Assembly (NCBI RefSeq): GCF_000189635.1
Contig: NW_002476361.1
Location: 248,001 to 312,000, forward strand
DNA length: 64,000 nucleotides
Reading direction: 5' to 3'
Origin: Tetrahymena thermophila SB210
Lineage: Eukaryota > Ciliophora > Oligohymenophorea > Hymenostomatida > Tetrahymenidae
Part shown: positions 4,540-64,000 of the stretch, in pieces
Layout of the letters: each line of letters begins with the position of its first letter
Position numbering within the stretch: the stretch's first letter is position 1
The notes under the pieces: generated by a model
What the model was told of the DNA's origin: nothing
The model's input: the letters and a program-made list of their open reading frames with translations, nothing else
Databases searched by the model: none
Program-made: the position numbers and the translations under genes

Positions 4540-7500
4540 ATGAGATAATTCATTTTACTCTTTCTTACTATATGTAAGATTCTTGAAGATATCTCCATAG
4601 TTATAGCATAAGAGAGCATTACAATAGAGCCTATATTCATAAAGAATACTAATACAGAATATGGATAGGCTACATTCTATTAACTCAAATTTTTTTATGG
4701 AAAAAGTATAGTTGATGGAAATGCTAACATAATAGTTTCTTTCCCTCATTAAATAGAATTACAGTATTTTCCTCAATATATTGAGTGTTATTACAAAGTA
4801 GATACGACTGAGCATTAAACTGTACCTTGTGAGTATAATAAAGAGCGTCAAGTTTACATCAATGTAAAAAGTATAATTTCAGGGGAGTAAAGCATAGCTA
4901 TAGGTCCTATCTTAAATCCAAATAATGTGCCTGGTACTTCCTTTTTCAAGCTCTGTATTCTATATAATGACTATCCAACAGAGTGTAATGACTCCTTTGG
5001 AAAAGTATACTTTGGCAGATAACCAGGTAATAATTATTAACCTTTTGTTTTTTATTCCTATACTTTTAACAGGTTATGCCCAATTTTTTTTAATTGTGAC
5101 TTACATTTATTTGCATGCAAATTTTGATTAAAACTATAAAAATAATAAAATTTGATCATAGTATTTACTGTAAAGATATTTTGATTATCAATAAAAATAA
5201 ATGGTTAAAAAAAATTAAATGAATGGAAATATTTAGTAAATATTGCAAATTTAATTTTATTTCATTAAATATATTTTTTAATGTTAAAATCATTTTATTG
5301 CTTTTAGGTGACTTCCAAAATATAAGACCATTTTAACTTCAAATAATATGAACTTATCTTAAAATCATTTAAATATAAAAAATTAAAACTATAGTAATAT
5401 AATAAAGTCTTCAAATAAATTATTATTATTAAATGGTGATAGCGCACCAATTTTTAAACAATCTTTACAGATTAAATGCATAAATAATTTGTAAATTGTT
5501 TAATTTTAATTGCCTAATAAATATTAAAAAGATAAAAAATATGGAATTATTTTCTTAATATTTTTTAGATTAGAAATTATTATTAAATCAGCACTTAATT
5601 ATGTTAAAATTTTTTTTAACAATTTTACTGTCTTAACTTAAATTTGAATTAATTACTTACAATCTCGATTTTTAATAATTTAAAGTTTAAATCCAGCAAA
5701 TTATTTTAATAAATATTTTAAATATTAAAAAAATATATTATAAAATAAGCTCTTATGCCTTTTGCAGATGTTTAGTATAAAAGTTCTCTTTAAGTCAATG
5801 AAGGAAGTTCTTGGATCTTTGATTTTAAATTATTAGGTATTTATGAAAATAATTTATTTAGCATCAGAATAACATTTCCTGAGGGATTTAAGACTAAATC
5901 TGCTTTATGTGATATCTAGGGTAGTCAAACAAAACCATAGACTATTATCCTCTTCAATTAAAGAATGATTGAGTGCTAAAATATTGCAAAATAACTTAAA
6001 GGAAGTCTATAAATTAGAATAATTAACATGATAAATCCTAATAGTATTGGAGACTTAAAGAATTTCTAAATTGAACTTTTATAACAATCTAATGGTTTAA
6101 TCTTTGAAAGAATAATCTTTAATCCTAAATTGGATATTTTGTTAAATGTAGGAAATATGAAAGCTAATCTAATTTAAGAGAACAACTTCAAGTTTTCAAA
6201 TAGTACTCTCACTTTCTAAATTAATCCAACAAATAAATTAGGAGAAGGTGGTACTCTTCAAATTATATTTGGCTAATAATGGAAATTATGGGCTCTTAAT
6301 TGTACTATTGTTAAAGGATTTTCCAGATATTCTGGAAAATTTCCAAATTGTTTCTTAAATTCAAATGATAATAGCTATAAAATACAAAACTTTAAAGAGA
6401 TTGATTTCACTCAATAAATAGTAGTCAAAATAATTGCTTAGTCTCCAAAATCAGAAGGAAATTTCCCTATTATTGTACAAACACTTAATTTAAGATAGAA
6501 AATTGTTGATTAGTCAACAGTTACAGCTCTCACAAACTCTACTTGTAAAATTTTTTCTAATAATAATTAATTTCTTATTAACCTTTCTAAACTTGATAGA
6601 AATATTAGATTAATTTATCATCTAATCTTAATTTTTCTAATTAATTTCAATTTGAATAATGATTGTTTACATAATAACTTGTCAAACAATTTAATTTCTC
6701 ACCATTTATTGAAAACTCTATTTATAAAGAATTTTTTAGCTTGTGGTTAAAATTTAATTTTAGAGATTAATAAGGATTAATTAGATTAATTCATTTAAAT
6801 TGAATATTTTTAGGGGTTATGATAAAGTCTATTAATTTATATTATAAATTCATTAATTTTGATTTTTAAAAATGTACCGTAACTATTCATGGCGAATGGA
6901 GGATGGCGAATGGTGAATATTGGCGAATCATTCAATAATATTTCAAATTATCATAAATTACTTGAATAACGCCGGCGAAAGTGGCGAATTAATGAATAGT
7001 TCTAAAATTACTTATTTTATGGGTTCCTTCTAAATATTTATTAATTTCTTTCCCACCCCTTATAATAAATTATCATAAAACCCATAATGCAAATAAGAAA
7101 ATCAATCAAAAAAGGGATATATATAGCCTCCAACTCAAGAAGAACTATAGTAATGGATCATATCAAGCTTTGAAAAGATTGATCACTGTTTGGTTTAAAA
7201 ATCTTTTAAAGTTTGTGGGATTTCTGAGGCTTTAGATGGCACCGAAGATCATATAGTAAATCAAAAGCTGAGAAGTAAATAAGATATTGGTGAATATTTG
7301 AATGAGGTACTAAATGACTAAAATAACTATAATGATTATAATGATGAAAGAGAAGTTATTTAGAGTTAATTAGATTCAATTGATTAACATTTTACATATG
7401 AAAATAATTAAGAAATAGCATAAAAGGTAAAGGGAGTAATCAGTAAAATAAAACTTACTTAAGATGATAATGAAGTAGAAACAATTATCAATCAAGAGTT

Positions 7501-10500
7501 TCAAGAAAATTTAGAATTATTGGAAGAAAAAGAAGAATACAGTATTACATTTAGTGATATTGAAGATAATGATGAGATACTTGAAGAATAACCTCATAAA
7601 AATATAAAAACCAATGATTAATAGCCAATAAAACCAATTGTTGATATTCCTTATTAAAGTACAATGATGATGGAAGAAGAAGAGAATGAAAATAAAGTTG
7701 ATTCTTAATGTAAGAATAAAATAAAAACTTTCAAAGATAACATTTTCAATAAATAAATTCATCTTATTAAATTTGGAAACAAAGTAGTTTAATATAAAAT
7801 AACATAATTTATGTAATGATATCTATTGTATTTTTACATTATTCAATATTCGCCATTTAATTTTGATCATTTTCACTTACCTTTTTTTTTTTTTATATTC
7901 GCCATTCGCCATTAAAATGGCGAATGGCGAGGAGAAAAATATTGAATAGTTACGGTATTAAAATATTATTTTTACAATAATTTTAGGCTTTATTATTAAT
8001 TTTAAAAAACTACTACTACTCTTTTTCGATTAAATTATTACAGGACTTCATTTATTTTAATTATAATAGTTGGGAGTCTCAAAAGGTTTACTGCTAGTGC
8101 TGTAAGAAATTAAATCAAATTACAGGCAGGAAAAGCAGGCCCTTTAGAATCAACCTTTTTTTTAAAGCATAATCTTCCAGCTACAAATTACAAATCTGTT
8201 GGAAAGGTTGTAATTGATATTTTTCCAAAAATACCTAAACCATCTACAGACTATGGAATAATTAAATGCTATTTCTATGGAAATATTTTAGCTTCTAGCT
8301 GTGATTTTAATGACAAAACATATGCAGATCGCACAAAAATAACTATTTATACTCCTGAAAATTATGATTTTCAAGAAAGTGAGATACCCATTACTGTTAC
8401 AACAGAAGGATCCAAACCAGGCTATAATGATGGAATTTTGTTAGATCCTCTTGTAAAAAGATATCTATTTCACTACCATTTCTATGATAATGATTTACCA
8501 GCTTCTGAACCTACTGAGGTGTATTACTAAGAATGGGTTCCAGATTCTTTTGAAATACCTGATATCGACTTCAAATATAATGTCCTCATAAGAGAAAAAA
8601 ATGAATATACTCATATGCGGTAACATTTTTTATATATTTATTTATCATTTTAAAATTTCAAAATAAAAAATATTTTATTTTTAACTTTTATTAGTTTTGA
8701 AATGAAGTAACAAATAACTTTACCTTACGGAGATAGAAATTACTTATTTAGAGTTACATTTATAAAAGATATTATAAATGTATGGTAAATAGGATAACCT
8801 TATGAGAATAACTATGCGATTATTGAAGACTTTCCTTGTTATTTATATGGAAGCACAACAGTTGCAAATCCTTTCTCGAAATGTGATTTATACCAATAGA
8901 GTTTTAGAGATCCTTTCATTCAAGCTTATGGATTTGAAACTCTAAAAATTTAAAAAGGTAATTGGATAATTTTAGAAATTCCTTAAATCCTAATAGCAAA
9001 TGTACCAACTGGCTCAAAAGGAACCCTAAGGTTTTCATTAATGGAGGAAACACCAGGTATGATTAATCCTGAAGTTGAGTTATACTATAAATAAATATCT
9101 GTAGAAATATTAGAATAGTCTTTTATAAATTATTCATTTAACCCTAACATAGCCACCACGCTTATACCACCTATTGTTAATCAACAAACAGATCTAAGAT
9201 TCTAATGGAGCGCAGCTGTTTATGACCCTTAATATTTAATTTATGAAATAGATTTAGTAGGTTATTATGATATAGGTAGAGGAATAATTCAATCCACTAA
9301 CTGTGATGGTAATTAGTGTATTAAATTTTAAAAGCCAGTCCATTGGATTGTAATTTATCCTAATACTCCTCTTAATTAGCAAATAATTACAAATATTTTA
9401 GGAGTATTTTAAAATCCAAATTATGCAGATTAATTCATTTTTAAGGTCAGAGCCATGAAAAATGGTGTAGTTGTGAATAAGCATACGTTTAATGTAAAAG
9501 TAGGCTCAGCAGATATATTAAATAAAATATTCGATATCTGCAACCCTAATCATGTCATTAATTCTATAAACGGCTTGATCAGAAAAAATGAAGAGCATGA
9601 ATTCTATATAAAATTCAATACAAGAACTTCCATGCCTAGAAACTCTCTGATACGATTTAGTTTTAGAAATATTTAAACTTAAACTCAAACTGATCGCCAT
9701 ATTAATTTTTGTAGAATCGTCAGTGGCTTAGTACCTTACGACAAGACACCTATTTAGTGCAAAGCAGTAAGTACAAGTATAATTGAAATTTCTCATTTTG
9801 AATAGGTTTTACAAAATGTACCAATAGAAATTCACATTCGACTTCTTATTGATGGTTCTGCAACAATAAACCCATCTGTAGATATTGAAACTTTTTATGG
9901 GCCTAAAAATGAAAAGCTGATTGATAGTACCTATTCAATCTCATCTAATACACCAAATATTTCTACAAATAATGTGGACTCAGAAGTAAAATTTAAAGTA
10001 TTAGATGAAGCTGTAAGATCAGAAAAAAGAGAAAAAGGTTATATAGGACCAGTAATTTTTGATTTCACACCAAATATAATTACAAATATTAAATATATTA
10101 AGGTAAAAATATATTATTTAAGGAACATAATTTCATAAATTTTAATATTTTATTTTCATTTCGTTTTTCTAAATATTTTATTCATGATAGATTAAGTTCG
10201 ATGCTAGCTTCTCTACCCCAAGAAATTATGGAACAGACTCTCTGATTTGCTTAGTGAATGAAGTGAGGTTTGAATGTGTTTATTCAATTAATCCTCTTTA
10301 CGTTTTAGTAGATATTACTTCTAATGCATTATAAGCTTCTTCTGCTTATAGATTATCAATATCTACTGAATATGTTTCTCCTTTAGATGGGTTAGTTCAT
10401 CCTAAAACTGAAGGCTTCTATCCTATTCATTTTTAACTATTGGACATTAATGGCTTTACAAACTAAGCTACTAGATGGATATTTATAAAAGCAGCTAAAT

Positions 10501-13500
10501 TATAATTCATATATATAGAGAGTGTAATAAGAAATTAAAAGAGAGCTAACATGTTTTATGTAAACTTTAAAACTACTTTGCCAGTTTAAAAACACAGCTC
10601 TGGAGGTAGAATTCATATAGAATTTCCTACTTTAGACCCTATGGGTAATCCTTTGTTTGATTTGGATTTGGGAGGTTACTAATAAAGTGGTGATGAAGTA
10701 GGTTGTAGATTTATCAAGTAAGGTGTAACAGCTGGAGATATAGGAGATATTAATGATAATAGATGCCGTCTTATAAAAAGTTAGAGAAGAGGCAATCCAG
10801 CTGTTGTAGAAATTATAAATTTTCCCTCACTACCTGCTGGAACTGAGATTTAAATGTGGATAGCTAAAGTTTTCAATCCACCAAACTTCAATTATCCTAG
10901 CTAACCTACTCTTTAAGTTATGGATGCTAATATATCTATTAATATTTTTGAATAAAATCCATTGACAGGTAAATTAATATTTTAAATTTATGATTTACGC
11001 ATTCATAATAATAATAAATGGATTAAGTAGTATACTAAAATAAAATTAATATATATATAATAAATAGGGGATTTGAAATACATTCATTATGATACATATA
11101 ATGTTTTTATGGATATTAGGGATGATCCAACTCTCCATGATGCCACTCATCCTTTTAGTTCTTAAAAAGTTAATCAGGTTTGGGAAACTGGATCTTAAGT
11201 AAATAGTAAATTAAAATCTATGGTAAATTAAGTATGGTATGATATTTCTCCGTTTGCTTCAGGAGATTTCTATATCGTAGAATTACCAAATAATTTCCCA
11301 GATACTCTAAAACCTGATTGGAAAATGGCTACTTGCCTAACATTCTACGACTGGTGTTTAACTTTCCCATAAATCAATTGGGTAGTTATGCACATAAATA
11401 CCAATCTAGTTGCTAATGTAATGTATGCTAGCAATGATGTTTTAAGTAATCTAATTTAAATAAATATAAATTTATTTTTAAATGTTATAAACAAATAATA
11501 TAATAAATATTAGTTTAAGTTTTACCTTAAAGTGTACCTTAGATAACTACCACTTATTAATCTTATGTTTGGTAAGGAAGGTTCTTCAGAGGATATGTTA
11601 TTCATTAAGTTACTCCTTAATAATGGCTACAATTAGTTGGTACTATTAGAAATTATGGATTGACTTAACTAGATTCTCCAAATAAGTTAGTTAAGGGAAG
11701 AACAAGAGTTGAAGTCAATTTTAATTTCACAAATTCTAACTTTATTCCTTACTATGGGGCAATATAGATTAGATTTCCATCAAGGATAGCTTCTATTTAA
11801 TCACACTGCAGGAGCTCCATAACTGTTGGATCTGGATTATAATCAAAAGTAGGCCCATTTGGTAATGTTGGGTGCTTAGTTCAAGATTAGAATACATGGG
11901 TTATCTATGGATTCAGTGATATAAATCCTCTAACTAATATTAAAATTTAAGGAGTAATTGATTTACCTAACGACGGGAATGCAGGGTATATAGGAGAATT
12001 AGATGTTATAACTTATGGGAGCCATGAATATGATAATATTTTTAATAAAGGCAGAATTATTGATAAGAGTTTAACACTTTCAAAAAGTGGATTTACTATT
12101 GACAACTTTTAAACAAAACAAATTGAAGATATTGATCTTTTACATATTGAAACCAAAACATTAAGAAATGCAAATAGGGTAACTTTCTTAATTTTTCTAT
12201 TCATTTACTGATATTTATATTATTTATAATAAAGACGCCTTTAACTTTTAAATTTAAAATTGGATACAACATATTTGCAAATAGAGGTAGAATTAGATTG
12301 ATGTTTTATCAGTATTCTTAATTATCCTTTAATGATTATATTGGAAATTCTTTTTAGTATTTCCCTACAAGTTAGTATGTCTGCAATATTCAAGTTGCTA
12401 ATACTAAAGAAAATTACGGTTGTAAAATCGAGCTAATTACATTATAAAATTAAGGATATAATTAAATATACTATCTCTTTTAGATGATTCCTAATAGTGA
12501 TTTACTGTCAAATGTAGATTATTTATTTACTTTAACCACAATTGATGGAGATGGCTAGGATGAAGGACTAACTTTTCCAAATTCAGGTTTACCTTACAAA
12601 GTATAATATTTTTTTTTACTTTATATTGAAAAATAATAAATAAAAATTTATTCTTTTTCTAAAAAGATTGATGTTTCTATGTCAATTTAAGAACCAAAAG
12701 GTGATAGTGATTACACTCTTCATTAGCATTTATATTACCAAGTCTATGGGTAGTCATTTGCATATTTAAAATTTACAAGTTACGTAACATTAAAGAATGA
12801 GATGAATTTATTTATTATAGAATTTCAACCTGGATAAACTATAAGAAATGATGATACTTTAGTGATAGAAATTCCAACAGCTTCTATAGATTTGCAAGAT
12901 AACTTGTTTGCAGATGATGGAGGTTTGTCTTTAAATAATCAAGATATAGTCGTAAATGATATAATTGATATGTCTCCAACATATCCAAACCCTACTATGG
13001 AATGCAGAATTTCGAGAGGTTTTTAGATTAAAGGACTTCCTATTAAGTTCCTTTGCAGCAACTTTAAATCTTCAGGTATTTTAAAAGATATTGGAGATAA
13101 TGACAGAATGAAAGTTGCTTTTAACATTTAAAATCCTGATGTTACTGTCAATCATTATTCAATCCCAGCATAAGTGTATGTTCAAAGAAATTACAAAAAT
13201 GCCAATGAGAAAATTCTTTATGACTTTGTTGAGAATGCTTTTTATATCCATTTTTGGAGTAAATTTTTATTCCTAAATTTTATTTAAAAAGCTTTTTAAA
13301 AAATATAAAAACCGATAGGTCCATAGATAATTTCTTTGGTTAATGGTGATTTTAATGTTGGTTCTACTACATAAACTGTTTGCAATACCCTTACAGATTT
13401 TAAATTTAGAGTGAGAAATAGCTAGAATTTGGTGGGTAAAAATGAGGATGCTTATATTTTAAGATTTAATTTCGAGTTAAGAGATGATGAATATCTTCAC

Positions 13501-16500
13501 AAAAAAAATTGTGCTTACATTATTACAGGAAATCCTCCTCATAACTGTGCTACTTTGCCAAATCTAAGAGCTTTTATAGCATGGCCTCATACTACTTAAG
13601 ATTTAGTAGCTCCTATATAAATTTAAACAACAGGAAATAAGTGGTTAACAAGTTTCTATAGAGAATAAAATGATATTAAGAGGTAAATAGTAGGTTATGC
13701 TTGTTATGTTAAAGAACTTTGGAGTGAAAAAGTAATATACTAAGATTTATACCCAGATCTACAACCTAATAGAGTTGAAACTGTTTATTTTGATCTTAGA
13801 TTTAAAAATATAGATTACCATTTCGCAAATGAAAAAATGGATTTTATTATGGAGGTAAATTATTTTTAAGATTATATTTAATAAGAATTTTTATTTTTTA
13901 ACACTATAAATATAATAAATAAAAAATTAATTACTTTAAAAAAAGGTTACTGCTCCTTATTGGTATTACACGGAAAGAGTAGTTATAACATTCCCTATTA
14001 ATATTGGATGGGCATTAGTAGGTGATATGTGCTTAGAAAGCCCTGGTTCTAATATAGAAGTGACTAAATGCTGGTTTGTTAATAATTCAGGTCAAATTTA
14101 AGCTTGGATTGATATAGCTCAAAAAGTATTAAAATTAGCTTATTTTTTAGGATATAAATTTTAATATAATTATAGGATAGTTATGTAAATGGAGATTAAA
14201 ATTCTAGATAAACTCTACTCATAGAATCTCATATGGAGGCATTCTAGGTTCCATCAAATCAAGTACTTAATCCTAGTTTTAGTTCATTTAGTGTAAAGTT
14301 CTATTAATGGTCAAGACTTCCCTCTATGCAGCCAAGCCCTTGGCGTAGTGACCCTCCTATAACTTTAGATCCTACAACAGAAAAATATTCATGCTTTACC
14401 AACAGCGCAACAATGAGAGCAGGATAAAACTTTGCTGTAGTGCCAAGCTAAACTTGGGATGTTAATTGGTAAAGTGAATCAACAATAGAATTCGATTATG
14501 AATATCACAGGTAAAGAATTCTATTTTTAAAACATAATTGATAGTAGTCTTAAAAAAACTGATAAAAAATTTAAAATTTACTTTAAATCTTCTATTATAT
14601 AAAGCATAATTATTTACTTTAAGATCTAACTTATTAATTCATAATTCTAGAAAAAATTTTTTGGCCCTCAATTTATGCGGCTCTTAATTAATGAGGATTT
14701 AGAGTATTATAAAATAAAATCATGAAAAATTAATACAAATGACTTAAAAAATTATTTAAAATTTAATTTTAATATAACTAAATTTTAAGGTATTTAGATG
14801 AATTTGTACCTTGCTTTAAAACTTAAAGGGCTCCTATTAAAATGGACATATATTCACCAACAGCTTTAAGTAGCTTAAAAGGAACATAAAATTATCATAC
14901 TTTTGATTTTTATTATGGAAGTGATGTTATAATCCCAACTCCTTTAGAAATAAAAGATTATGTTTAAGATAAATTAATATGTTGGGTCAATAATGATAGA
15001 GTTAAGTGTGAAAATGATTAAAAAAAAAATAAGATAAGACTTTATTTCTAAACATAAATAGCAGTTAATGGTTTAATGTTTATTTTTATTACATCTCATG
15101 ATACTAATGATATAACCAACGAAGGTTTTAGTTATTAAGGAGATTAATACTAATACAAGTGGCTTTATGAGATTTCGTAATTTGGAGGATAAACATATTA
15201 TGGCTATACAGACCCTTTCCCTATTATGTATAATACAAATGGAGGTATTAAATGCCCACACAGAGGTATTGAGGATGGTGACTTAGCAGATAGTTCTACT
15301 TAAATAGCAAATCATCTTACTGGGTATTGGTTTTGGTTTAGATTTGCAAGACCAGATATTTTAGGTATTACTTTTAATTTTAGACCAAGGGATTATGATA
15401 ATAGAGATCTTTATAATCCAAGCTTTTTTATGGGTTTAGATAACGGCGCTTAATATCCTTGTTCTAGAGGTATATCTGGTGGTAAAAGAAATGATGTTAG
15501 GTGTATTTATGAAAAAGGTGATAATACAGGATTTGGTATTTCTCATCGTGTACATGTTTTTGATTTTAATTATCAAGTTGGTACTAATGAAATTTTTGGA
15601 TTGTTATTTAATGGTATTACAAATGTGTTTAAGATAACAGTTGAAGCTTGGGGTGGTAAAGCAACTTTTAATTAACCTTATGGAAACTATTTTATGGGTT
15701 CTTTAATTTTTGATGCGTAAATTTAATTATTTTCTCATAATAAAAAAAGTAATTCACTGTTTTAAAAATAAATAGCTGGTGGGGTCCTTGGAATGGTGTC
15801 TGCATTACACCAAACAGTTGTAAAGAATGTGATAATACATAAAATAATTGTGACTATTAAGGTACAGTTTTTGTTAAGCCAGAAAAACCTGCTTTTATGG
15901 ATAAAAATATTCTTCATTTTTAAAACACTTGCTAACCAGGGACATAAAGCACAGTATTTGTTGAAATAGTTTTATAAAGTAAAATATTAAATATTTTTAT
16001 TTAAATTTATCAAATTTTAATATTATATTTTTGAACAGAAAAAAGCTCTTTTGATTCAAATTATGTAGAAGTGTGCTAAGTTGATCCTTAAATTCATGTA
16101 AAAGATATGTTTATTTATGAAAAATATGAGTGGGCAGCCATTCCTGGATAAAATGAATATGTTAAAAAAGCCTATTTGTATTATGATTTTAGTGATGGAA
16201 AAGTGAATGAGTAATTACTTCAATTCTTTGATTTAATTAAAATATCTATGAAGAATAATTAATTTATATTTTAGTTTTATTAAGTTTAAAACATTTGATC
16301 ATTAATTTATTTTTCTAAATATAATAAATATTTTTGAAATAGCATTAATATAGGATATTTTAAGTGCAAGCACTATAATCAAAATATTATAACATACTAT
16401 TAATGTGGTGACTTAAAGGCTAGTAATCTAAGACTTCATATTAGATTTGAGACTTAAACTAATAGAATTTGCGAATAAAGATACGGAGCTACATTTAAAG

Positions 16501-35164: not shown

Positions 35165-35700
35165 AAAAAATTAAAATTTTTAAGTTTTATTTTGCTTTCT
35201 AACTGAGTATGAGTTTAATTGAGAAAGAAAAAAATTAATAAATAAAGACATAAAATAATGAATAAGTATTTTAGTAAAAAATAAATTTCTTTTTTTATAT
35301 TTTTAAATCAAGTAAGTTATCTTGAACAATTTATTTGAAAATAGACACATCATTTTGAGAGAAATCTTAAAAAGATTAAAAACAGGTGATGGTAAAAAAA
35401 ATTAAAAATTTAACATTAATAATTAAAATATAAAAAAGTATCTTTTAAATATATTTTCTATTAAGTTAAAGAAATGGTATTTATTTGAAAGTTGATATTG
35501 TTTATTTTGTTTATTAACATTCATTTTCAGTTTTTTACATTTAAAATTGTATCCTCTCAGTTTGATTTTAATTATTTATATTTATATCAATCAATCAATT
35601 AATTAAAATACAAAATTTAATATTAAATAGTTTATCTTTAAAATATATTAATTATTATAGACTATTTTTTGCAAAATTTTAGCTCAATTGTAAAAATTAC

Positions 35701-39915: not shown

Positions 39916-40189
39916 TTCTCTATAAAATAAATTTTTTTTTATTTACAAAAATTTATTAACATTTTTTAAGTATTTTATAACTATTTTATATTTAATTTAA
40001 AATTTTATCTAGCTTGGATTGATAATTAAATATATTGGTTATTAATTAATTTACTTTTCAGATTATTGCTCTTTCATACTTTACCCATTAAGAGGCATAT
40101 TATCCATTTTATGTAAATAATTATTCAATTTTAATTTTTTTTGAAAGTTTATTATATTATTTCATTATAAAAAAGTGAATTATGATTAA

Positions 40190-41400: not shown

Positions 41401-41848
41401 TATAAATAGGCTTTCACATCAAGAAATAATAAAGATAACAATCCTATTTATATATCCAGTTTTATATCCTTCTCAAAAGAATATCTATCAAAGTAAAATA
41501 TCAATTTATACAGTATTTCCTATATAAGTAATCCATTCAATACTTAAGGTATTACCATTTTTTATATTTAACTTTAAAAATGGAATATTATTTAATAAAA
41601 AATACTCTTAATAATAAATTTAAATTTAATTATTAAATTTTTTATTGACAAACTATTTCAAATAAATTCTTTTATTGATAAACTATTTCAATTAATTTCT
41701 TTTATTGATAAATCTTTTAAAAATAAAAGTATCTATTTTAAATCATTTAAAATATCAATAAACTATATAATTTATCACTTTAGGACAATCAAAATAATAA
41801 TAATAATTTTATAAAAAAATAAAAAAATAAAAATAAATTAAATTAAAG

Positions 41849-50200: not shown

Positions 50201-53200
50201 TAACATTTTATGATTGGTGTTTAACTTTCCCTTAAATAAATTGGGTAGTTTTGCATATAAGTGCCAGTTTAGCTGCTAATACTATGTATGCTAATAATGA
50301 CGTTTTAAGTAATATAAATAAAATTTATTTTTAAACTAAAAAAATAAATTATATTATAAATAGTTTAAGTTTTACCTTAAAGTGTACCTTAGATAACTAC
50401 CACATATTAATCCTATGTTTGGTAAGGAAGATTCTTTAGAGGATATGTTACTCACTAAATTACCCCTAAGTAATGGCTCTAGTTAATTGGAACTATTAAA
50501 AATTATGGATTGACTTAAATAGATTCGCCATAAAAGCTAATCAAAGGTAGAACAAGAGTTGAAGTCAACTTTAATTTTACAAATTCTAATTTTATTCCAT
50601 ATTATGGTGCAATTTAAATTAGATTCCCACCAAGAATACTATCTATATAATCTCACTGCAGAAGCTCAATAACTGTTGGATCTGGATTGCAATCAAAAGC
50701 TGGTCCATTTGGTAATGTTGGATGTTTAGTTCAAGATTAGAATACATGGGTTATATATGGATTTGGTGATATAAATCCTTTGACTAACATTAAAATTTAA
50801 GGAATTATTGATTTACCTAATGATGGAAATGCAGGATATATTGGAAATTTAGATGTTATAACTTATGGTAGTCATGAATATGATAATATTTTTAATAAAG
50901 GTAGAATTATTGATAAGAGTCTTGCACTCTCAAAAAGTGGATTTACTATTGATAACTTTTAAACAAAACAAATCGAAGATATTGATCTTTTACATATAGA
51001 AACTAAAACTCTAAGGAATGCTTATAGGGTAATCTTCAAAACTTTAATAATTATTTACTGATAAAATTTATTAATATTTTAGACTCCTTTAACTTTTAAA
51101 TTTAAAATTGGCGATAATGTATTTGCAAATAGAGGTAGAATTAGACTAATGTTTTACTAATACTCTTAACTATCCTTCAATGATTATATTGGGAATTCTT
51201 TTTAGTATTATCCTACAAGTTAGTATGTATGTAATATTCAAGTCGTTGATACTTAAGAAAATCATGGATGTAAAATGGAATCAATTACTTTAAAAAATCA
51301 GGGATATAATTAAATATACTACCTCTTTTAGATGATCCCTAATAGTGATTTACTGTCAAATATAGATTATCTTTTTACTTTAACTACAATTGATGGAGAT
51401 GGTTAGGATGAAGGGCTAACCTTTCCAAATTCAGGTTTACCTTATAAAGTATAAAATATTTGTTATTTTAAATTAAAAATGAATTTATTTTTATTTATCT
51501 GAAAAGATTGATGTATCTATGTCAGTTTAAGAACCAAAAGGCGATAACGATTACACACTTCATTAGCATTTATATTACTAAGTTTATGGATAACCATTTG
51601 CATATTTAAAATTTACAAGCTACATTACTTTAAAAAATGAAATGAACTTATTTATAATAGAATTTTAACCAGGATAAACTATAAGAAATGATGATACCTT
51701 AGTTATTGAAATCCCAACTGCTTCTATAGATTTGCAGTATAATTTGTTTGCAGACGATGGAGGTTTACAGCTAAATAATCAAGATATAATCTTAAATGAT
51801 ATAATTGATATGTCTCCTTCATATCCAAACCCTACTATGGAGTGCAGAATGTCAAGAGGACTTTAGATCAAAGGACTTCCTATTAAATTCCTCTGCAGTA
51901 ACTTTTAATCTTCAGGTGTTTTAAAAGATATAGGAGCTAATGATAGAATGAAAGTTGCTTTTAACATTTAAAATCCTGATGTTACTGCAAATCATTATTC
52001 AATCCCAGCATAAGTATATGTTCAAAGAAATTATAAAAATGCCAATGAGAAAATACTTTATGATTTTGTTGAGAATGCTTTTTATATCCATTTTTGGAGT
52101 AAATTTTTGTTAATAAAATTATTTTTTAAAATTTAAATAAAAATAAAAAAATAAATAGACCCTTAAATAATTTCTCAAGTAAATGGTGATTTTAATGTTG
52201 GTCCTTTTACATCAACTGTTTGTAATTCCCTTACGGATTTTAAATTTAGAGTGAGAAACAGCTAGAATTTGGTAGGTAAAAATGAGGATGCTTATATTTT
52301 AAGATTTAATTTTGAATTAAGAGATGATGATTATCTTCACAAAAAAAATTGTGCTTACATTATTACAGGAAGTCCTTCTCATAATTGTGCAACATTACCA
52401 AATCTTAGAACTTTTATTGCATGGCCTCATGCTACTTATGATTTAGTAGCTCCTATTTAAATATAAACAACAGGAAATAAATGGCTAACTAGTTTCTATA
52501 GTGAAGAAAATTAAAATAAGAGGCAAATAGTAGGTTATGCTTGTTATGTTAGAGAACTTTGGAGTGAAAAAGTAATATACTAAGATTTATACCCAGATCT
52601 ACAACCTAATAGAGTAGAAACTCTTTATTTTGATCTCAGATTTAAACATGTTGATTACCATTTTGCAAATGAAAGAATGGATTTTATTATGTAGGTAAAG
52701 AGTTTTTCGGATTTAATTTAAAAAGCTTTTAATTTTAAACACAAAAATTAGAATAAATAACTAATTTAATTTTATAAAGGTTACTTCACCTTATTGGTAT
52801 TATACAGATAGAGTAGTCATAACATTCCCTGCTAATATTGGGTGGGCACTTGTAGGTGATATGTGTTTAGAAAGCCCTGGTTCTGATATACAAGTAACAA
52901 AATGTTGGTTTGTTTTTAACTCTGGTCAAATTTAAGCATGGATTGACATAGCTCATAAAGTAACGAAATTAACTTAATCTTTTAGAATTACTTATATAAC
53001 ATTATTATAGGATAGTTATGTTAACGGTGATTAAAATGCCAGATAAACTCTACTCATAGAATCTCATATGGAGACATTCCAGGTTCCATCAAACTAAGGA
53101 ATAAATCCTAGTTTCAGCTCATTTAGTGTGAAGTTCTATTAATGGTCAAGACATCCCTCAATGTAACCAAGTCCTTGGCGTAGTAATCCTCCTGTTACCT

Positions 53201-56200
53201 TAGATCCTTCAACAGAAAAATATGTGTGCTTTACAAACAGTGGAACAATGAGAGCTGGAGAAAGCTTTGCAGTAGCACCAAGCTAAACTTGGGATGTCAA
53301 TTGGTAAAGTGAATCAACCATAGAATTTGATTATGAATATCACAGGTAAAGAAGAATTTTATTTTAATTTCAGAGTTAATTATAATTATAAATAAATATA
53401 TAAAATAATTAAAAAATAACTTTAAAAATGTTAATATCTAAAACCTAATAATTTACTCTAAATTTTAAATAATTAAATCTTAAAATTTTAAATTATTTAT
53501 TTTTATTGCCATTAAATAGTATCATTTTTATTTAAAATTGTTATTTATTATAAATTTTAATATAACTAAATTTTAAGGTATTTAGATGAATTTGTTCCTT
53601 GCTTTAAGACCTAGAGGGCTCCTATTAAAATGGATATTTATTCACCAACAGCTTTCAGCAGTTTAAAAGGAACATAAAACTATCACATTTTTGATTTTTA
53701 TTATGGAAAAGATGTTATAATCCCAACTCCAATAGAAATAAAAGATTATGTTTAAGATAAATTAATATGTTGGGTAAATAATGATAGAGTTAAGTGTGAA
53801 AATGATTCAATAAATAATAAAATTAGACTTTATTTCTAAACTTAAATAGCAGCTAACGGTTTAATGTTTATTTTTATTACATCTCATGATACTAATGATA
53901 TAACCAATGAAGGTTTTAGTTATTAAGGTGATTAGTACTAATATAAGTGGCTATATGAAATTTCATAATTTGGAGGATAAACATATTATGGATACACTGA
54001 CCCCTTCCCTATTATGTATAATACTAATGGAGGAATTAAATGTCCTCACAGAGGAATAGAAGATGGTGATTTAGCAGATAGCTCTACTTAAATAGCATAT
54101 CATCTAACTGGGTATTGGTTTTGGTTTAGATTTGCAAGACCAGATATTTTAGGTATAACATTTAATTTTAAGCCAAGGGATTATGATAATAGAGACCTTT
54201 ATAACCCAAATTTTTTTATGGGATTAGAAAATGGTGCTTAATATCCTTGCTCTAGAGGAATATCTGGAGGTAAAAGGAATGATGTTAGGTGTATTTATGA
54301 AAAGGGTGATAATACAGGATTTGGTATAGCTCATCGTGTGCATATTTTTGATTTTAATTACCAAGTTGGTAATAACGAAATTTTTGGATTGTTATTTAAT
54401 GGCCTTTCAAATGTGTTTAAGATAACAGTCGAAGCTTGGGGGGGTAAAGCAACTTTTAACTAACCTTACGGAAATTATTTTATGGGTTCATTAATTTTTG
54501 ATGCGTAAATTTAATTATTATAATAATTAAAAATATAATTTATTCATTTAAAAATAACTAGATGGTGGGGTCCTTGGAATGGTTTATGCAGTGTACCAAA
54601 TAGTTGTACTGGGTGCGATAATACATAAAATCACTGTGACTATTAAGGAACTGTATTTATGGTACCAGAAAAACCTGCTTTTATGGATAAAAATATTCTT
54701 CACTTTTATAATACTTGTTAGCCTGGCACATAAAGTACAGTTATTGTCGAAGTAGTCTTATAAAGTAAATATTTAAACAATTTTATTTAAATTTATTAAA
54801 TATTTAAATAAAAAACTTTTATTTTTGAACAGAAAAAAGCTCTTTTGATTCAAGTTATGTTGAAGTGTGTTAAGTTGATCCTTAAATTCATGTTAAAGAT
54901 ATGTTTATTTTTGAAAAATATGAATGGTCTGCTAATCCTAGTTAAAATGAATATGTTAAAAAAGCTTACTTGTATTATGATTTTAGTGATGGAAAAGTGA
55001 ATGAGTAATTTTTCTATTTTAAATTCTAATTTTTAATTTTAACTATTTTCAGTATTCTAAGTAATAATCTTTTTTAAATTAGCCTTAACATAGGGTATTT
55101 TAAATGCAAGCACTATAATCAGAATATTATAACATACTATTAATGTGGTGACTTAAAGGTAAGCGATTATAGGCTATATATTAGATTTGAGACATAAACT
55201 AATAGAATGTGTGAACATAGATATGGTGCTTCAGAATGTAATACTTCATCCACAGCCACTAATGAATATGCAGCAGAAAAATACACAATAAATATTAATG
55301 ATTTTAATAATGATTATGACTTCAAAATTTGGAAGTTTCATGAAGATACTTGGACTACTCTTGCAGTCAGACTATTTGACGTACATAATAATGCCTTTAC
55401 AACTCCCTATTATGATTCTGTGTTAACTTTTAGTTATGATTAATTCTTGAATATTCCTAATTTTGGAATACCTTCAGAATGCTATATAGTAGAGGGATTG
55501 AGAATGTCAGATAGAAGAAAATTAGGAGAAGAACCATTATGTTAAGTTTTACCTAATCCAAATAATTCTTCACCTTTAGCATTTATATTTAAAATAACTA
55601 ATTGGGACACTATCGTTCCTAACGAATATGTAAGAATTTTATTTAGACATCATATTATGCAATATATATGGAATGTATATAATATCCCTGACTATTCTCC
55701 TTTTGTGATGAATTTATATGCAAATAATGAAGCATATGGAGATGGTAAAAATGGGCATATGAACTCAAGAAAATGGGTGAATCCGTATAACTTTTACTTT
55801 TGCTGGAATATAAATCATAATTTTGTTGTACTTGACTTTAACCATTAAGGAGCTGACACTTTTCTTCTTGCTTAAGCCTAAGCAAGTTCAAATGTAAAAT
55901 ATTTAAAAAATTATTTTGGATTAAAAAATTAAATGTCAACTCTACAAAAATTTAATGTTTTTTTTAATTATATTTTAACTTAAAATTTTCTAAAAAAATG
56001 TTGCTTATTTTCTATTAAATTACATATAATAGATAGGATTCCATTTTAATAATTACGATTGTACATATAATTAATGTATTGAGTTAGTTATGTTTGGTTT
56101 ATAAGATTATGCTATGGGTAGGACAATTACTATTTAATGGTATATCAATGATTAGTTAAACAGCTGTACTGATTGGGCAGATTTTAGGTGGAAAGGGATA

Positions 56201-59200
56201 CACAGATGGACTTTATGCTTTGATTAAAATAGAAATTGCTTATAAAATGGTAAAATTCTTTGAATTATAAATTTATTTTTAATTAATTTTACTTTAAAAA
56301 TAATAGGTTGGTATACAAATTAAGTTCTTAAATTCAGAATAACATTTTAAGGAGTTTAAATTCCTTTGGATAGAAATTATTGGTGGGTTCATATGAGATT
56401 TTATGAGAATATACTTTTTGAGAGGTATATAGGAGGATGTGCCCATAGAGGCTGGGAATTCATGTGCTAAAATGACGAATGGGTTAATAATTTTGAAATA
56501 GGTGCATCTCTATCTGTAAATTTATTATCGCTATCTTATAATTCTATTACAGAAGTTGACTTTATCATTACTTCTATATATGAGTCTATTGGTTTAGATG
56601 TTAATGTTAATAGAATACTAATTATGGAATTTAGTGGCTCAGATTGGTTAGATAATCCAATTTATGGTACATAGTATGATCTATAAGAAATTAATTGTGC
56701 ATGTGGAGTGAATACATTAGTTTTAAGTCCATAAGTATGTGTAAAAAGAAATAGAAGAATTGTAGCAGGTAGACTTTATGATCCAGTTGTTCTTTTTTAT
56801 TTTTCAGCTCCTACAGGTATTATAAACAAAACTTATTAAATTATCTATTGCTAATATCTCTATTGTTTTTCCTCAAATAATTATTTTTCATTATATTGTA
56901 TTATTTTTTATAAATAGGGTCAACTGTAAGGTGCTCTGTCCCAGAAATTATGATTGAAGCATAAGCTACTGCACCTAGAGCGAGAAAGTTAAAATTCAAA
57001 ATTATTCGCCCATCTCTTTACGAATGGTATGGGAAAAATGGTGAATAATTTAATTCAAGAGTAAAATCTGAATATTCATTTACTCCAATTCCAAATAGCT
57101 CTACCTCTGATTTAAGTATGCACTATAATCCTCCTGTATTTTACTAAGATAGAACAACTACAGAATTATTTGTAGGGTACTATGACTTACAAATTTCTAA
57201 CATAAAAAATCTTAACACTCCATATGTTTACATAAGACATTCTGAAATTGGTCCACTTATGACAACTGAGCTTTGTGAAGATAAAGGTCTTTGGGATCCT
57301 AACTATACTAAAGTTTACAATTAACACACCAAAGTATTAATATGTAGAAGAGTAGCATCTGCAGTAACAACTGCTGTTATTGGAGCTGGCAAGTAAAAAA
57401 TTTTTGTTTTTTATAAATAAAATAATGATAAATTTATAAATTTTTAGGAATTTATATTTTGAATAGTGGAAATCTCAAACAGCTTCTGATTATTTATACT
57501 ATGTTTTTGTTTATCAATCTGCAGAATTGAGATAACAATAATAGTCAGCACCTATAACTAATAGCTTGTTTTAACCGATAAAAACTTCTTCTTTTATTGT
57601 TGATCATTTCTTCTATTCATATAACAAAAGTTTAGACTAATCAATAATAGCAATCTAAGTCGGTTTAAGGGGATTTTTATGGAGAGAAACAAGGGATGGA
57701 GGAAGAGTAGAAATATTTTTACTAAGATCTCAAGTCACTGGTATTACACCAGGTAAATTTAAAATTTTACTCTTATTAAAATTTAAACAATTAACTTTAA
57801 TTAGCATGTACTGCAAGAATTGAAAAAGAATTTTAACACGTATTGTGGTGCTATGTAGACAATAGAAGTAACGATTACTGGATAATAGTTGTGCATAATT
57901 TATTCACTTAAATACAAACAAATAATTATTTGAATATTTATTTTTCAATGAAAAACCCTTCAGGAGCTACAAATAGATCAGTTCAATATATAGTAAAATT
58001 TTATTATAACTATAAATCTGATGGTGACTACAAAGTGCAAATACAAGATTTATTTTCTCAATCTAACTTTGACTTTTCAGAGTATGATAAAGGTTACACA
58101 AGAATTACCAATGCCATGTCTCGTTTTTATGGCTTTAGACCAAAAATTTTTGTTGATAGGAGGTTTGAATTAAGATTCTATGCTAAAATTATGTCACCTA
58201 AAGTATGGCTAGAAAGAATAGAGTAAAAATATTTTATTTTATTGATTGTTATTTTACATATAAATTTTAATAAAATAAACTTAAGCTTTTATACAAATGA
58301 GTTGTGTGTAGAGTCAGGATTTGACTGTAATTATTTATTAGATGTTAGGGTAAGAGAATATGATACAACTCTTCTATAAAGATATCAGTAATAAATTCAT
58401 TTATTCATTATTTATTATATTTTCAATTTTAATTACTAACAACTATAGAGAAATAGAAGTTAGAGGTAGATCTTGGTTAGGTGTTGGATATTTGATTAAT
58501 TAACCAAATTATAGAGTTTATAATCAAGGTTCAAAATTAGAATTTATAATTTCAACTAGAAGAACAAATTCACATATTGGTTTATGGAAATAAACTAATC
58601 CAAATAGAGTTGGTCATATGTTTGTCTACGACAATGCTTAAGATTCGTAAATCACTTATATTTATAAATATTTAAATTAAAAAATAATAATCTCTAAAAA
58701 TTAATTATAAAAAAGAAAAACAATACAAAGTAATGAACATTAATCAAATACAAAATATAATGACTTCTCAACTAATAAATAAACTGATGAACTCAAACTT
58801 TAATATTTCTATTTTACCAATTAAATACATAATTAGCTTACTTCATTTGTAATTGGAATGTTTGTTAAAAGTGGTAGTACTATGGATTACCCTAGAATAT
58901 ATTTTGAATTGAAATTCCCTATTTTGAAAGTAGCTAATATTCCTGGAGCTACCCATGGCAACACCATCCCTTGCCAGATTTCACTAGTTTTAGAATCTTA
59001 AAATCCAAATAGGGTCAATTCAGCTAGATGCAGAGTTTTTGATATTAACAGTAAAAATTAGATTTATTATCAACAAATAATTAAATAATAATTAATATTT
59101 TAAATAGCAAAATCATATTAAGGTCTTATGGTAAGAATCGAAGAAATAAATAAGTTTAGCCCTTAAACTGTTTTAACTTTTGCTTTTGATGATTGGCTTT

Positions 59201-62200
59201 TACCTGACTCTACTAATGGCTATACTCCTATTGATATTGAATTTAACCTATATAAATCAATTTCACAAAGTGCTGGATCTCTTGATTATTTTAGATATTT
59301 TCTTCTTTTAAAAGAAATGATTTTGGTAGATGGAATGAATCCTTCAATATGGGATAATACTGCGATATGTAAATATTTTATTTATATTTTAGAATTAATT
59401 AAAATAGGTTTTAAATTATTAATTAGCTTCAATTTAATTAAAACCCCCTAATAATTATGTTTATGGCAAAAAAAATGTTGAATACAACGATAATTTAATT
59501 AATCCTTGGCCTAAGCCAACTATAGGATATGTTGATACATGGGGATAATACAATACTGCTGGATAAAAGGTTTTTAATTATTTTGCTTTTAAATAAAATT
59601 TTAAGATTTTCCCTTTTTACATTTAATTTTATGTGAAATTTAACTATTTAAAAAAAGATGAGATTAATATTCGCAAATGGTTTTATTGGAGGGGATAATA
59701 CTCCAGATTCTTTGAATTACTATGATGGTTTTGGGCAGCTTCAATTACTTTGGTTTAATAGAAAAACTAGATCTGCATACATATCTGCTCCAAAAAGAGA
59801 TAATAACAATTCCATAAATTTTTCTATTAAAAATGCTGTTAATCCTTATCCCTATCAAAAAGATACTTGGAATTCGAATGGAAAAATAGATTATTAATTA
59901 TATATGGGATAATACTGGAATTTTAATGGAGATGGGTTTAGATAAACTAATATAGGTTTAATGGAATTATCATCTAATGCATAATGGTCTTAATTCATAA
60001 AAGATCTTCCTACTATAAATATAGATCTAAGCTAATCACACTTAGTAATTTTTTTAATTATTAAATTTAGTTTCAATTTTTTTTTTTAGATTGATGTTAT
60101 TCCAACATATAACTACGCAGCTAATTAGAGTATAACTATGAGATTTAGAATTACACATTAAATAAGTAAATCTGAAAGAGTAAAAAGATAATTAACTAAT
60201 GTTGTATTTGATTTTACATAAGGAGTTAAGGCTATTCATAAATGCTACATATAAAGCGAGGGTCAAAAATAAAATTTGTATATTTATAGATATGCAGATT
60301 GTTAAATAGGATTTGCTAACAATAGATATAATGTCTAATTAATAGGAGTAGCTAATTGGGAAGATACTTCTCCTTATTAAATGTTTTTACAAATGTAGAT
60401 TGATAAAGATACTATAGCCTACACAATATCAACCTACACATAAAACGGCTAGGTTGAATATTTCAAATAAGTTACTGTTCCATCTACTTAATTTAGTAAA
60501 GTTCATTATACTTTTAACTATTTTAGATTTACTGAAGGAAAATATATTTCTGGATATCATGAGATAGCATAAAGAAATATTTATACTAATAGCGCTATTA
60601 ATACTACATGGAGGTTGAGATTTAGATTTATTTTAGATATTACACTTAATTATAAGTAAACTACTATTTTTGTTGACCCTATGACTAATGCTGATTATTT
60701 ACAAATTAAGCTACCTCCATTATTAACCAATGGATATATTCAAAGCGATTCAACTCAATGGCTAATGTGCTATTTTGTTCCTGAAATATCAGCTTATGAT
60801 AAATTAGGTTAATTATTTTTCAAATATTACTCCTTTATTTCATTCCTATTTAATTTAATAAAAAAATTTAAATTAAATATTACTTTATTATTTATAATAG
60901 CATTACCTTTATACTCTAAATGTAAAATTGATACAACTGGAAATCCATATTTTTATATATTGACAGCCCCTAGAGATATTTTAATAAATGGCAAAGCTTA
61001 TGTAGTTCATATTACAGAAAAGAGAATTTAAGGTGCTTCATTTATTCTTCCTCCAGCACCATAAAGATCTGAATTTATTTGGTATTGTTATAGTCCTTTA
61101 GGAACAACAACACCATCTTACGATACCTTTATTACAAGAATAACAAACAGGTTCTTGAAGGCTAAAATCAATCATTTAACTACAACCTCAGAAGATTATG
61201 ATGTTGCTGAAATTACTTTCACCCCTTCTGTCCCTCTTAGTCAAATGTAAGAATCATATTTCTTGGTTGAAATAGATAGTATTTATTTCTAAAAGACAGG
61301 CTTCAATTATGAAGATTTTGATATAATAAATTCATATAAAAGAGATGGATTAACTGAATTTATAAATGGATATGATCATTCTTATTTAATTGAACCTCCA
61401 TTCTCAAATGGATTTTCTTTAATTAATTTTGGTTAGCATAGCAATTTCTTTGCAAATATTATGATAAATCATGTTAATGGGTAAGATTTAAATGCTGGTT
61501 AATAATATGTTTTCAAAATTCCTATGATTAGAAACCCTAGAGATTAGCATACTTCTATTTCTTATAAAATTTCAACAGTCTTTATAAGTAATAAGGATAT
61601 GAGAAAACAAATTTTAGATGAGTTTTGGTTCGTCAATCATGCATATGTTGACACTACTCACAATGACATGACAAGTGCTAACTTTAAAATGAATTCTATA
61701 AATGATTATGTGCAATAAAACACTATGGATTTAAGTGTTTAGTTTAATTATGATATAGGTCCACCTTAAAGAATTCTATTAAAATGGGATAATAATAATG
61801 ATATTGCAATTGATAGGACATAATTAATGACAATTTAAATCTCTGGATGTAAAGTTGAAGTTTTTGATAAAATTTATTTAATTATGGTCACTCCTTTAAG
61901 TTATTAACAATCGGCCTGGTCTGTAATGAGTTTAGGAACTAATTTTAAATCTAATACTTATTCAGTTTAATATGGGTTTTGGTTTACATACATAACGAAT
62001 AAATCATTAACTTAATATTATCATAATCCTTAGCAAAAATGGCTCAAACCTTTAGAAGATCTTACTCCTAAAACATTTGTCTATAAAATAGGATTTTAAA
62101 CAATAAATAGTGTCTGCCTTTACAGATTAATCATTTCTACACCAAATTAAGTACCAATTGGAGGATATATTGAAATTAATCTATCGAACGAACTTGATGG

Positions 62201-64000
62201 ATATGAACCCTATTGTTATACATATACTACTTTTAATTTAGTTGATTCAACAAACCTTAAGTAAGTAAAATACGGGCCCCTTGAATGCCAAATGAAAAAT
62301 TCTAAACAATATTTAATAAAAGGATTTAATAGCTTTACTGTTTCTACAAGCATAAATGTAGACTTGTATCTTAAAAATGTGAATAGTGGAGCTGTAGTTA
62401 ACCTTTCAAATGTTAGCATGTATGGAACATAAAATTCTTAAAACATAATAGCAGTTTCTAAACCTGTACCCTAAGTAACAATTCTATCTAGTAATCCAGG
62501 AATGAGCTATTTTGAAATTTTAGACAGAGTGAATTATCCTATTTATGCAAAAGAGTGGTAGAAATTAGATTTTATTTTTACTTTGAGGTCAAACAATTTA
62601 CTGATTAATTAAAACTACAAATTGAAATTCAATCTTCCTTCTGGTTGGATAAGTGCAATCGGATCAAGGCTATAGTTAAAAGGTAGATATAAAAGAAACG
62701 ATCCATCTATCTTGCCATATGACACTTATCCTTCACCTCCTTATAAATACAAAGATTGGACTACTTCCAAGTTTAGCTTAGAGGGAGATAAGCTTGTATT
62801 TGAAATTAATGTTGATGATCCTTTATTAAGTCATTATTCAATTAACTAATAAATTGAATATATCTTTTCAATTGACTCTGAAAGAGCTGATATAGCTTAT
62901 CAAGAAGGTCTTTTAAATGCAGACCGAGGATTATATAATTTTTATTTGGATGCATACCAAAGTAGCACACTGCTAGAGAGAACATATAACGAATACTACG
63001 TAAAGCCCAGAGAAGATGTATCTGACACATTTAGAGCATAAGTTTTAAATACAGGTGCAGGGTAAAAGACAGTTATCAGATTTAGTTTTACTATGAATTA
63101 TGATAAAGCTGTTAAGGGTGACGAAATTTGGATTGAGTTTTAGACATTTGATAGGTTAAATAAAGTATTCAAAAATGATCTTGGGTTAGGTTTTAGTGAT
63201 ATTTCAGCTTAAATTGGTTGCTCAGAGAGGTTTGGATTTAATAAAATATCAAAGCAAAGAATTCTTTGTTATGTTTTTAAAGGAAATTAGAATATATTAG
63301 CACCAATGAGAGGAACTCCTGTTCTTATTAAAATTCCAATCTTAAAAGATATTCCTAGCACAGAATTAGTTGATTTTTGGATAGCTTATGTAGAAAATCC
63401 AACTATTGTTGGATAAGTTGCTGGTATTAAATTGAGTGTTAGAAGAGATTGTAGAGATGATAGTCCACACTTTAATTGCATTCTTTATCATGCTGAACAT
63501 TAATATTATATAACATAACCAATACCTCTTAGCTATTATTAAATAAATGGAGCTTTCTCAGCAAATTCAAATATTGTAACTCTCACTGCTAGTCACACAT
63601 TCACTATTAAACCATCGATAGATATATAAAATAATTAATATATTTTAATTTAATATCCTTCTAATCATAAAAATAAAAATACATGCTAATCATAAGTTGG
63701 AGAATGTATAGAATTTCCAGAATACAATTGGGTAATTGTTTAAACATTTAAGAATAATTTTTTTAAAATTTAATTTATATCAATATTATTTATAAATTTA
63801 ATTAAAATTAAGTGAGTTGCCATATATCAACAATATTAATTATTTTATCTATATTTTTTATGTAAAAAATAGGTTTTATTTAAACCAAGTGCTTTAATAA
63901 AAGCTGGATTAGATACTTCTATACAGTTGGATAATATGATAAATGGATGGCACAGAAGAAACCCATCCCCAAATAACTATTTCCTTCTTTAAGCATTTGA
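44227..64000 (+). CDS. Giant secreted modular protein, copy B (3' end outside window)
   Basis: Paralogue of 4540-32107. The ATG at 44227 opens a clean signal peptide, MRYFIFLFLSLFQIFESISL, ending ALA before QDS. Thirty exons, the last cut by the window end, give about 5397 residues with no TGA or frameshift. Of the 29 complete exons, 28 match copy A in length exactly; exon 16 is six bases shorter (two codons in a Thr/Ser-rich loop). Introns are unrelated in length and sequence, and intron 2 lacks the transposon. The same IxIxFP...Cys...IxIxI...NP modules are present. Conservation of frame and splice sites against diverged introns implies selection on the protein. Function is unknown; an extracellular structural or adhesive protein is the best guess. 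The C-terminal fibronectin-like region lies beyond the window. Confidence 0.87.
44227..64000 (+). other. Exon map of giant gene copy B, exons 1-30
   Basis: Exons: 44227-44713, 45444-46220, 46809-47358, 47467-48874, 49062-49839, 49931-50308, 50364-51028, 51083-51448, 51507-52098, 52159-52694, 52780-52959, 53011-53345, 53578-54504, 54562-54764, 54833-55004, 55083-55893, 56033-56249, 56307-56816, 56918-57392, 57448-57752, 57805-58222, 58286-58387, 58449-58646, 58716-59050, 59108-59368, 59427-59569, 59658-60044, 60090-60807, 60901-63731, 63873 to beyond 64000. Every border was placed by frame, GT...AG and the matching border in copy A. Confidence 0.82.

Follow-up and report, generated by a model that had tools for sequence, protein, structure and literature searches.

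Tandem giant genes of Tetrahymena thermophila encode putative secreted, modular structural or adhesive proteins

A 64,000-nucleotide (nt) stretch of the Tetrahymena thermophila SB210 genome (contig C176:248001-312000, here called the window) was analyzed together with the host genome of 101 Mb in 445 contigs. Telomerase sequences of this genome point to T. thermophila: a segment of the telomerase reverse transcriptase agrees with PDB chain 2r4g_A at 101 of 102 aligned residues, differing at the first of them, and a segment of the telomerase protein p65 is identical at 46 of 46, both PDB chains being from T. thermophila; a further La-domain segment gave matches only to distant La-related proteins. 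Two giant genes, A and B, start within the window and are members of a tandem array that comprises four paralogues of the macronuclear genome. The reading we favor, and hold with about even confidence, is that these paralogues encode intact, soluble, secreted and disulphide-rich proteins of approximately 847 kDa which act as structural or adhesive filaments. The four copies and their gene structure, purifying selection on A and B, a conserved cysteine pattern and the lack of a clear membrane or glycosylphosphatidylinositol (GPI) tail were all obtained directly by computation.

Results

Genetic code and models of genes A and B

With the standard code no frame of 150 amino acids or longer was found on either strand of the window, while with code 6 (in which TAA and TAG encode glutamine and TGA alone is a stop) many long frames appeared, and the ciliate code 6 was therefore adopted. 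BLAST comparison of all open pieces revealed that conserved segments occur in two parallel series, one (A) starting at position 4540 and the other (B) at position 44227. The gene finder built for the analysis used code 6, a codon model and GT/AG splice profiles; its codon scores were trained on the conserved A segments and its splice profiles were retrained on its own output. Each copy was analyzed with an intron penalty of 3.5 and with a stricter one of 5.0. The raw output at 3.5 contained 39 exons for each of A and B, and the final models are edited versions of it in which one A exon was removed and fused exons, two in A and one in B, were divided where a boundary had been called in the other copies. 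The reason for dropping the A exon (7098-7709, 612 nt, in intron 2) was its position within a transposon-like insert that has terminal inverted repeats.

The final model of gene A (4540-32107, plus strand) contains 40 exons and 22,011 coding nt, ends in a TGA stop and encodes 7336 amino acids with a mass of 847 kDa. An initial annotation of this DNA had given the same number of exons, a mass above 800 kDa and a length of 7342 codons. Gene B (44227-70563, plus strand, 40 exons, 7337 amino acids) runs past the window end, and the end of exon 30 together with exons 31-40 were taken from the adjoining contig sequence. Exon lengths in A and B are equal in 38 of 40 cases, the differences at exon 16 (817 and 811 nt) and exon 31 (714 and 723 nt) being multiples of three. 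The window contains 29 B exons in full; 28 of them are as long as their A counterparts and exon 16 is 6 nt shorter, so that B repeats A exon for exon as annotated. The introns of A measure 50-1525 nt (median 68 nt), introns 1 and 2 being long at 723 and 1525 nt, and are of mixed phase (17 phase 1, 13 phase 0 and 9 phase 2). Intron lengths vary between the two copies and A-B intron identity is 0.69-0.98 over aligned columns, which fits the free intron drift reported initially. No in-frame TGA is present in the models of A and B, but the finder forbids in-frame TGA, and intactness therefore rests on the exon-by-exon match and on a ratio of nonsynonymous to synonymous divergence (dN/dS) of 0.12 over 7308 codons. 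Scanning the window for tRNAs and, at the gathering threshold, with Rfam gave no matches.

The four-gene array and its distant relatives

A and B do stand in tandem, as had been stated, but they are not simply a pair: four genes lie in a row, and approximately five distant relatives occur elsewhere. A DNA search of the genome with window positions 21000-25000 gave matches at 100%, 88%, 84% and, in three pieces, 66-75%, all of them on contig C176 and on the same strand. The four genes are arranged head to tail on one strand in the order D, A, B, C. Copy C (71530-98278 in window numbering) begins 967 nt after B, and its homology-guided model has 40 exons and 7338 amino acids. Its exon lengths equal those of A in 36 of 40 exons (exceptions are exons 16, 27, 31 and 38), as obtained with a script that favors exon lengths similar to the other copies and accepts only length changes that are multiples of three. 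The free finder at penalty 3.5 placed C at 71722-98278 with 39 exons; exon 1 was shorter in this model, which differed locally in other respects as well. Because C was modelled with guidance from homology, its intactness is not as independent as that of B.

Copy D, the older copy of the array, lies before A (about -49040 to -22452) and is 58-60% identical to A, B and C. Exons 2, 6, 20 and 29 of D were not placed by the homology script. The free finder gave D 38 exons and 7378 amino acids with no in-frame stop, and this model adds introns in exons 2 and 29 which are either true introns or frame breaks. The models of C and D are less sure than those of A and B.

On three other contigs we found at least approximately five relatives (one on C277, three on C31 and one, a partial match, on C182), these counts being lower bounds, with 25-38% identity depending on the segment. 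The C277 relative matches exons 4, 29, 33 and 39 in order over about 24 kb, and the C31 relatives also have their matched segments in order, with some segments unmatched in some copies. Since the C277 and C31 paralogues keep segment order over 13-24 kb, we argue that each is a single gene.

Selection and gene conversion

Nei-Gojobori counts (table 6, whole codons inside the 40 exons) gave a dN of 0.059 and a dS of 0.484 between A and B, a dN/dS of 0.122 over 7308 codons. The corresponding ratios were 0.146 for A-C (7307 codons), 0.135 for B-C (7308 codons) and 0.21 for D-A, the last over 32 of 40 exons (4715 codons) as exons 5, 19, 32 and 33, which have odd lengths, were also left out. When computed exon by exon, the A-B ratio ranged from 0.05 to 0.43 and was nowhere near 1; no fast-evolving exon was found between A and B, the maximum belonging to an exon of 34 codons. 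With C as outgroup, single-step changes found only in A comprised 566 synonymous and 225 nonsynonymous changes (ratio about 0.104) and those found only in B 496 and 133 (ratio about 0.070); these counts leave out 122 multi-step codons and the codons at which A, B and C all differ. Purifying selection acts on both A and B, and the low branch ratios indicate that both copies have been retained ever since their separation. On the branch-specific change counts we reject the decay of A or B into a pseudogene. These ratios, together with the matched exon chains, uphold the earlier statements that neither copy carries a disabling change and that selection maintains both reading frames.

In exon 33 the dS between B and C is 0.116 compared with 0.72 overall, and the longest identical run is 124 nt. 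This near-identity suggests a recent exchange between B and C, and exon 33 of the two genes is a likely gene conversion tract.

Cysteine pattern, modules and predicted fold

Nearly all cysteines of A (114 of 118) are conserved throughout the four copies. When cysteines within 25 residues of each other were paired greedily, A yielded 45 close pairs, whereas 5000 random placements averaged 27.8 and never exceeded 38. Between residues 216 and 1922, a stretch picked after seeing the pair list, 12 successive pairs are spaced by 131-185 amino acids (mean 155, standard deviation 17), a regularity reached by none of 20,000 random placements.

Profile comparison by hhalign matched residues 1204-1310 (exon 5) to residues 5145-5253 (exon 29) with a probability of 88 and an E value of 3.4e-6, and window profiles matched residues 5814-5881 to 1233-1304 with a probability of 62-63. 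A BLAST search with exon 5 gave a match to 24080-24652 at 23% identity, and an exon 29 query matched the exon 5 region of copy C (C176:324241-324747) at 28% identity. The first part of the exon 33 profile (9 rows) matched residues 5275-5387 (probability 61) and its own later part, residues 6068-6188 (probability 40), and at a probability of 20 or above the exon 39 profile had no match but itself. These matches point to at least partial homology among modules that have diverged strongly, and the modular character described in the initial annotation is supported.

An AlphaFold2 model of a stretch (27513-27995) of exon 33, an exon aligned across eight family members, had a mean predicted local distance difference test score (pLDDT) of 60.1 and a predicted template modelling score (pTM) of 0.56, and contained eight strands and one low-confidence helix in a beta-sandwich. 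A first model, of exon 5 from four window rows, was too weak to be used (pLDDT 42.6). Both models consist mainly of strands. In the 10 of 40 exons of A that were scanned, no Pfam family was over its cut-off and no GFR domain was matched, and Pfam, NCBIfam and PDB sequence searches with the tested core modules returned sub-threshold matches or none.

Exon 39 has a weak likeness, in seven family members, to fibronectin type III (FN3; PF00041; the FN3 domains of NCAM and DSCAM). The exon 39 profile of these 7 members matched NCAM in the PDB (E 6.4e-4 over 47 profile positions); Pfam FN3_DSCAM was matched by 6 of 7 members (best E 7.7e-5) and Pfam fn3 by 4 of 7 (best E 7.9e-4). Exon 39 of A itself falls short of the curated cut-offs of both Pfam models (fn3, 14.7 bits compared with 25; FN3_DSCAM, 19.1 compared with 39). 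The protein is therefore not wholly without relatives, and the earlier view that it belongs to no recognized family holds for the scanned exons at the Pfam cut-offs and has to be qualified for the C-terminal part. In contrast to FN3 proteins, the giant protein showed FN3-like sequence in exon 39 alone, a minor portion of the chain.

Protein ends and charge

The N-termini of A, B and C each contain a Kyte-Doolittle window above 1.6, and those of A and B are, as first proposed, putatively signal-peptide-like judging by hydropathy and sequence. Past the N-terminus, hydropathy is borderline at residue 2197 of A (1.67) and C (1.66), and the maximum in B is 1.53. The last 40 residues are hydrophilic in all of A-D, with no C-terminal window above 1.6 and hence no hydrophobic C-terminal GPI signal, and inspection of the four C-termini showed no KDEL-like end. 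The product is without a clear membrane or GPI tail. D contains 220 lysines compared with 427 in A and has a net charge (K+R-D-E) of -92 compared with -24, and its surface chemistry probably differs from that of A.

Annotated and neighboring features

Exon coordinates and the main regions of the genes are listed in Table 1.

Table 1. Coordinates of the exons of genes A and B and of selected regions (window numbering)
Feature	Position	Strand	Remarks
Gene A, exons 1-8	4540-5026, 5750-6544, 8070-8619, 8695-10102, 10191-10968, 11068-11445, 11514-12178, 12235-12600	+	
Gene A, exons 9-16	12667-13258, 13319-13854, 13946-14125, 14176-14510, 14790-15716, 15776-15978, 16039-16210, 16343-17159	+	
Gene A, exons 17-24	17281-17497, 17556-18065, 18165-18639, 18696-19000, 19052-19469, 19537-19638, 19694-19891, 19970-20304	+	
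Gene A, exons 25-32	20363-20623, 20678-20820, 20908-21294, 21347-22064, 22152-24982, 25168-25360, 25465-26178, 26277-26972	+	
Gene A, exons 33-40	27064-28526, 28591-28816, 28871-28976, 29029-29503, 29559-29660, 29744-30151, 30503-31877, 31944-32107	+	
Gene B, exons 1-8	44227-44713, 45426-46220, 46809-47358, 47467-48874, 49062-49839, 49931-50308, 50364-51028, 51083-51448	+	
Gene B, exons 9-16	51507-52098, 52159-52694, 52780-52959, 53011-53345, 53578-54504, 54562-54764, 54833-55004, 55083-55893	+	
Gene B, exons 17-24	56033-56249, 56307-56816, 56918-57392, 57448-57752, 57805-58222, 58286-58387, 58449-58646, 58716-59050	+	
Gene B, exons 25-30	59108-59368, 59427-59569, 59658-60044, 60090-60807, 60901-63731, 63873-64065	+	Exon 30 cut by window end at 64000
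Gene A, signal-peptide-like region	4540-4611	+	About 24 residues, end approximate; putative, from hydropathy and N-terminal sequence
Gene A, core of divergent modules	4612-30151	+	About residues 25-6824; many with a close pair of conserved cysteines
Gene A, exon 5 module	10191-10968	+	Residues 1204-1310; profile match to 5145-5253 in exon 29
Gene A, exon 33	27064-28526	+	Aligned across eight family members; modelled stretch 27513-27995
Gene A, exon 39, C-terminal region	30503-31877	+	Weak fibronectin-III-like sequence
Gene B, exon 33	65747-67209		Beyond window end; likely gene conversion tract
Gene C, exon 33	93237-94699		Beyond window end; likely gene conversion tract

The transposon-like insert in intron 2 of A (6875-7957) is bounded by perfect terminal inverted repeats of 15 nt (6875-6889 and 7943-7957), and GGCGAATGG repeats occur near it; the intron measures 1525 nt in A, 588 nt in B and 656 nt in C. 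A transposon remnant is unusual in what looks like a somatic ciliate genome. Between A and B a ZIP zinc transporter frame lies on the minus strand (32645-33655; Pfam Zip, E 9.2e-53). Upstream of A, segments similar to the ZIP region are found at about -5950 to -4600 and at about -2750 to -630, and minus-strand frames are predicted there as well, so that this neighbor gene has seemingly been copied too. The A-B intergenic region contains a tandem duplication of roughly 4 kb (35240-38560 and 39040-43250) in which most of the listed two-copy patches are 79-100% identical. Both copies of the duplication hold a glycine-rich coding-like stretch (37928-38023 and 42544-42639), and a 100-N assembly gap is located at 38034-38133. 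Four frames in the duplicated region gave no Pfam match at an E value of 0.01.

Discussion

Giant multi-module secreted proteins are known, and the architecture found here suggests another family of this kind. The protein would enter the secretory pathway by way of its signal peptide, and its layout would be a signal peptide, perhaps 40-50 divergent beta-sandwich modules, the FN3-like sequence and a hydrophilic end. Many modules would carry a short cysteine loop, and the chain may fold as a long string of disulphide-stabilized modules and serve, on the cell surface or within secreted material, as an extended filament with a structural or adhesive role. The module fold beyond the one low-confidence model, the number of modules, the disulphides and the place and role of the protein are what we infer; the structural or adhesive extracellular reading draws on the combination of secretory entry, no clear anchor, cysteine-bearing sheet modules and an FN3-like end. 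By our own estimate a single chain would be perhaps 150 nm or more if fully extended. The paralogues probably serve different places or stages and are not mutual backup. That they make up a hitherto undescribed filament of the ciliate surface, with secreted chains of approximately 847 kDa forming a fibrillar coat or adhesive and differently charged paralogues used by place or stage, is a more specific proposal which we regard as unlikely.

Several results weigh against the filament reading. The spacing of cysteine pairs becomes irregular after about residue 2400 (9-626 amino acids), and profiles of 160-residue windows compared with the whole protein gave only 6 off-diagonal matches (probability of at least 60 over at least 50 columns), reducing to two relations, so it is chiefly the spacing of the cysteines that speaks for all modules being of one family. 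The two structure models, with pLDDT values of 42.6 and 60.1, are weak, and the PDB fold matches are generic, the best including bacterial adhesins and carbohydrate-binding modules. The N-terminus of D is hydrophobic yet without a window above 1.6, and the hydropathy of D peaks at 1.97 near residue 4760 and is just over 1.6 near residue 6481. The gene models were derived from genomic sequence alone. This last point, with the long introns 1 and 2 of A, bears on whether gene A is a single 40-exon gene or two or more adjacent genes: at penalty 5.0 the finder breaks A after exon 1 into two predictions and splits C into three. However, B stays one gene at both penalties (38 exons at 5.0), the median A intron is only 68 nt, the same 40-exon chain is found in A and B, and paralogues at about 30% identity keep the segment order, which together make such an error highly improbable.

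If the proteins are single chains that enter the secretory pathway, other destinations have to be considered. They could be cargo of regulated secretory granules (mucocysts or similar), that is, a giant matrix protein which is stored folded and exocytosed as capsule or slime. The signal-peptide-like start, lack of a clear anchor, many conserved cysteines and several paralogues would suit such cargo, as they would any secreted bulk protein, but known mucocyst core proteins are small, and we hold this explanation to be an unlikely one. Somewhat less likely again is a structural protein confined to the lumen of an internal compartment (cortical alveoli, contractile vacuole or food vacuole) and never exposed outside; a signal peptide marks entry to a lumen only and does not tell lumen from exterior, while the four C-termini show no KDEL-like end. 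A role in conjugation or cell-cell recognition, as a giant partner of the mating-type complex, would suit extracellular modular proteins present in several paralogues. We consider it improbable, as PMC10901506 describes members of that complex as membrane proteins of 92-212 kDa, unlike the giant proteins, and no exon evolves fast even at the A-B maximum of 0.43 in the 34-codon exon.

Comparison of the proposed filament proteins with known systems gives partial likenesses. According to PMC10901506, the mating-type proteins MTA, MTB and MRC1 have five transmembrane helices and a GFR domain. Like these, the giant proteins are large ciliate proteins with a presumed place at the surface, but A is without several transmembrane helices, having a single window above 1.6 past the N-terminus (1.67, residue 2197). 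Paramecium surface antigens are, according to PMC9788069 and PMC12113882, large secreted ciliate proteins with several gene copies, and are GPI-anchored (PMC12113882); the giant proteins are likewise large, predicted to be secreted and encoded by several gene copies, but have no hydrophobic C-terminal tail. Tetrahymena leucine-rich repeat genes also form an expanded, repeat-bearing family, with arrays of 90-bp exons (PMC6564038), whereas none of the 40 exons here is 90 bp and the intron phases are mixed. The beta-sandwich match to MSCRAMM adhesins and pilins (ClfA, SdrG, RrgA, Ace) and to CBM3 is generic and comes from a low-confidence model. The literature searched, which included few subscription journals, contained no description that we recognized as this family, and the available sections of PMC10901506 and PMC6564038 do not mention it. 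Genes A-D may well be annotated as hypothetical proteins in the Tetrahymena Genome Database.

To our knowledge the products, if translated as read, would be among the largest secreted proteins known. Their core module matched no Pfam family in the exons tested, and at least three intact-looking copies together with a fourth, older copy have been kept in a laboratory model ciliate, where their role is directly testable by gene removal. The locus shows that a gene of more than 27 kb has been duplicated and kept under strong purifying selection.

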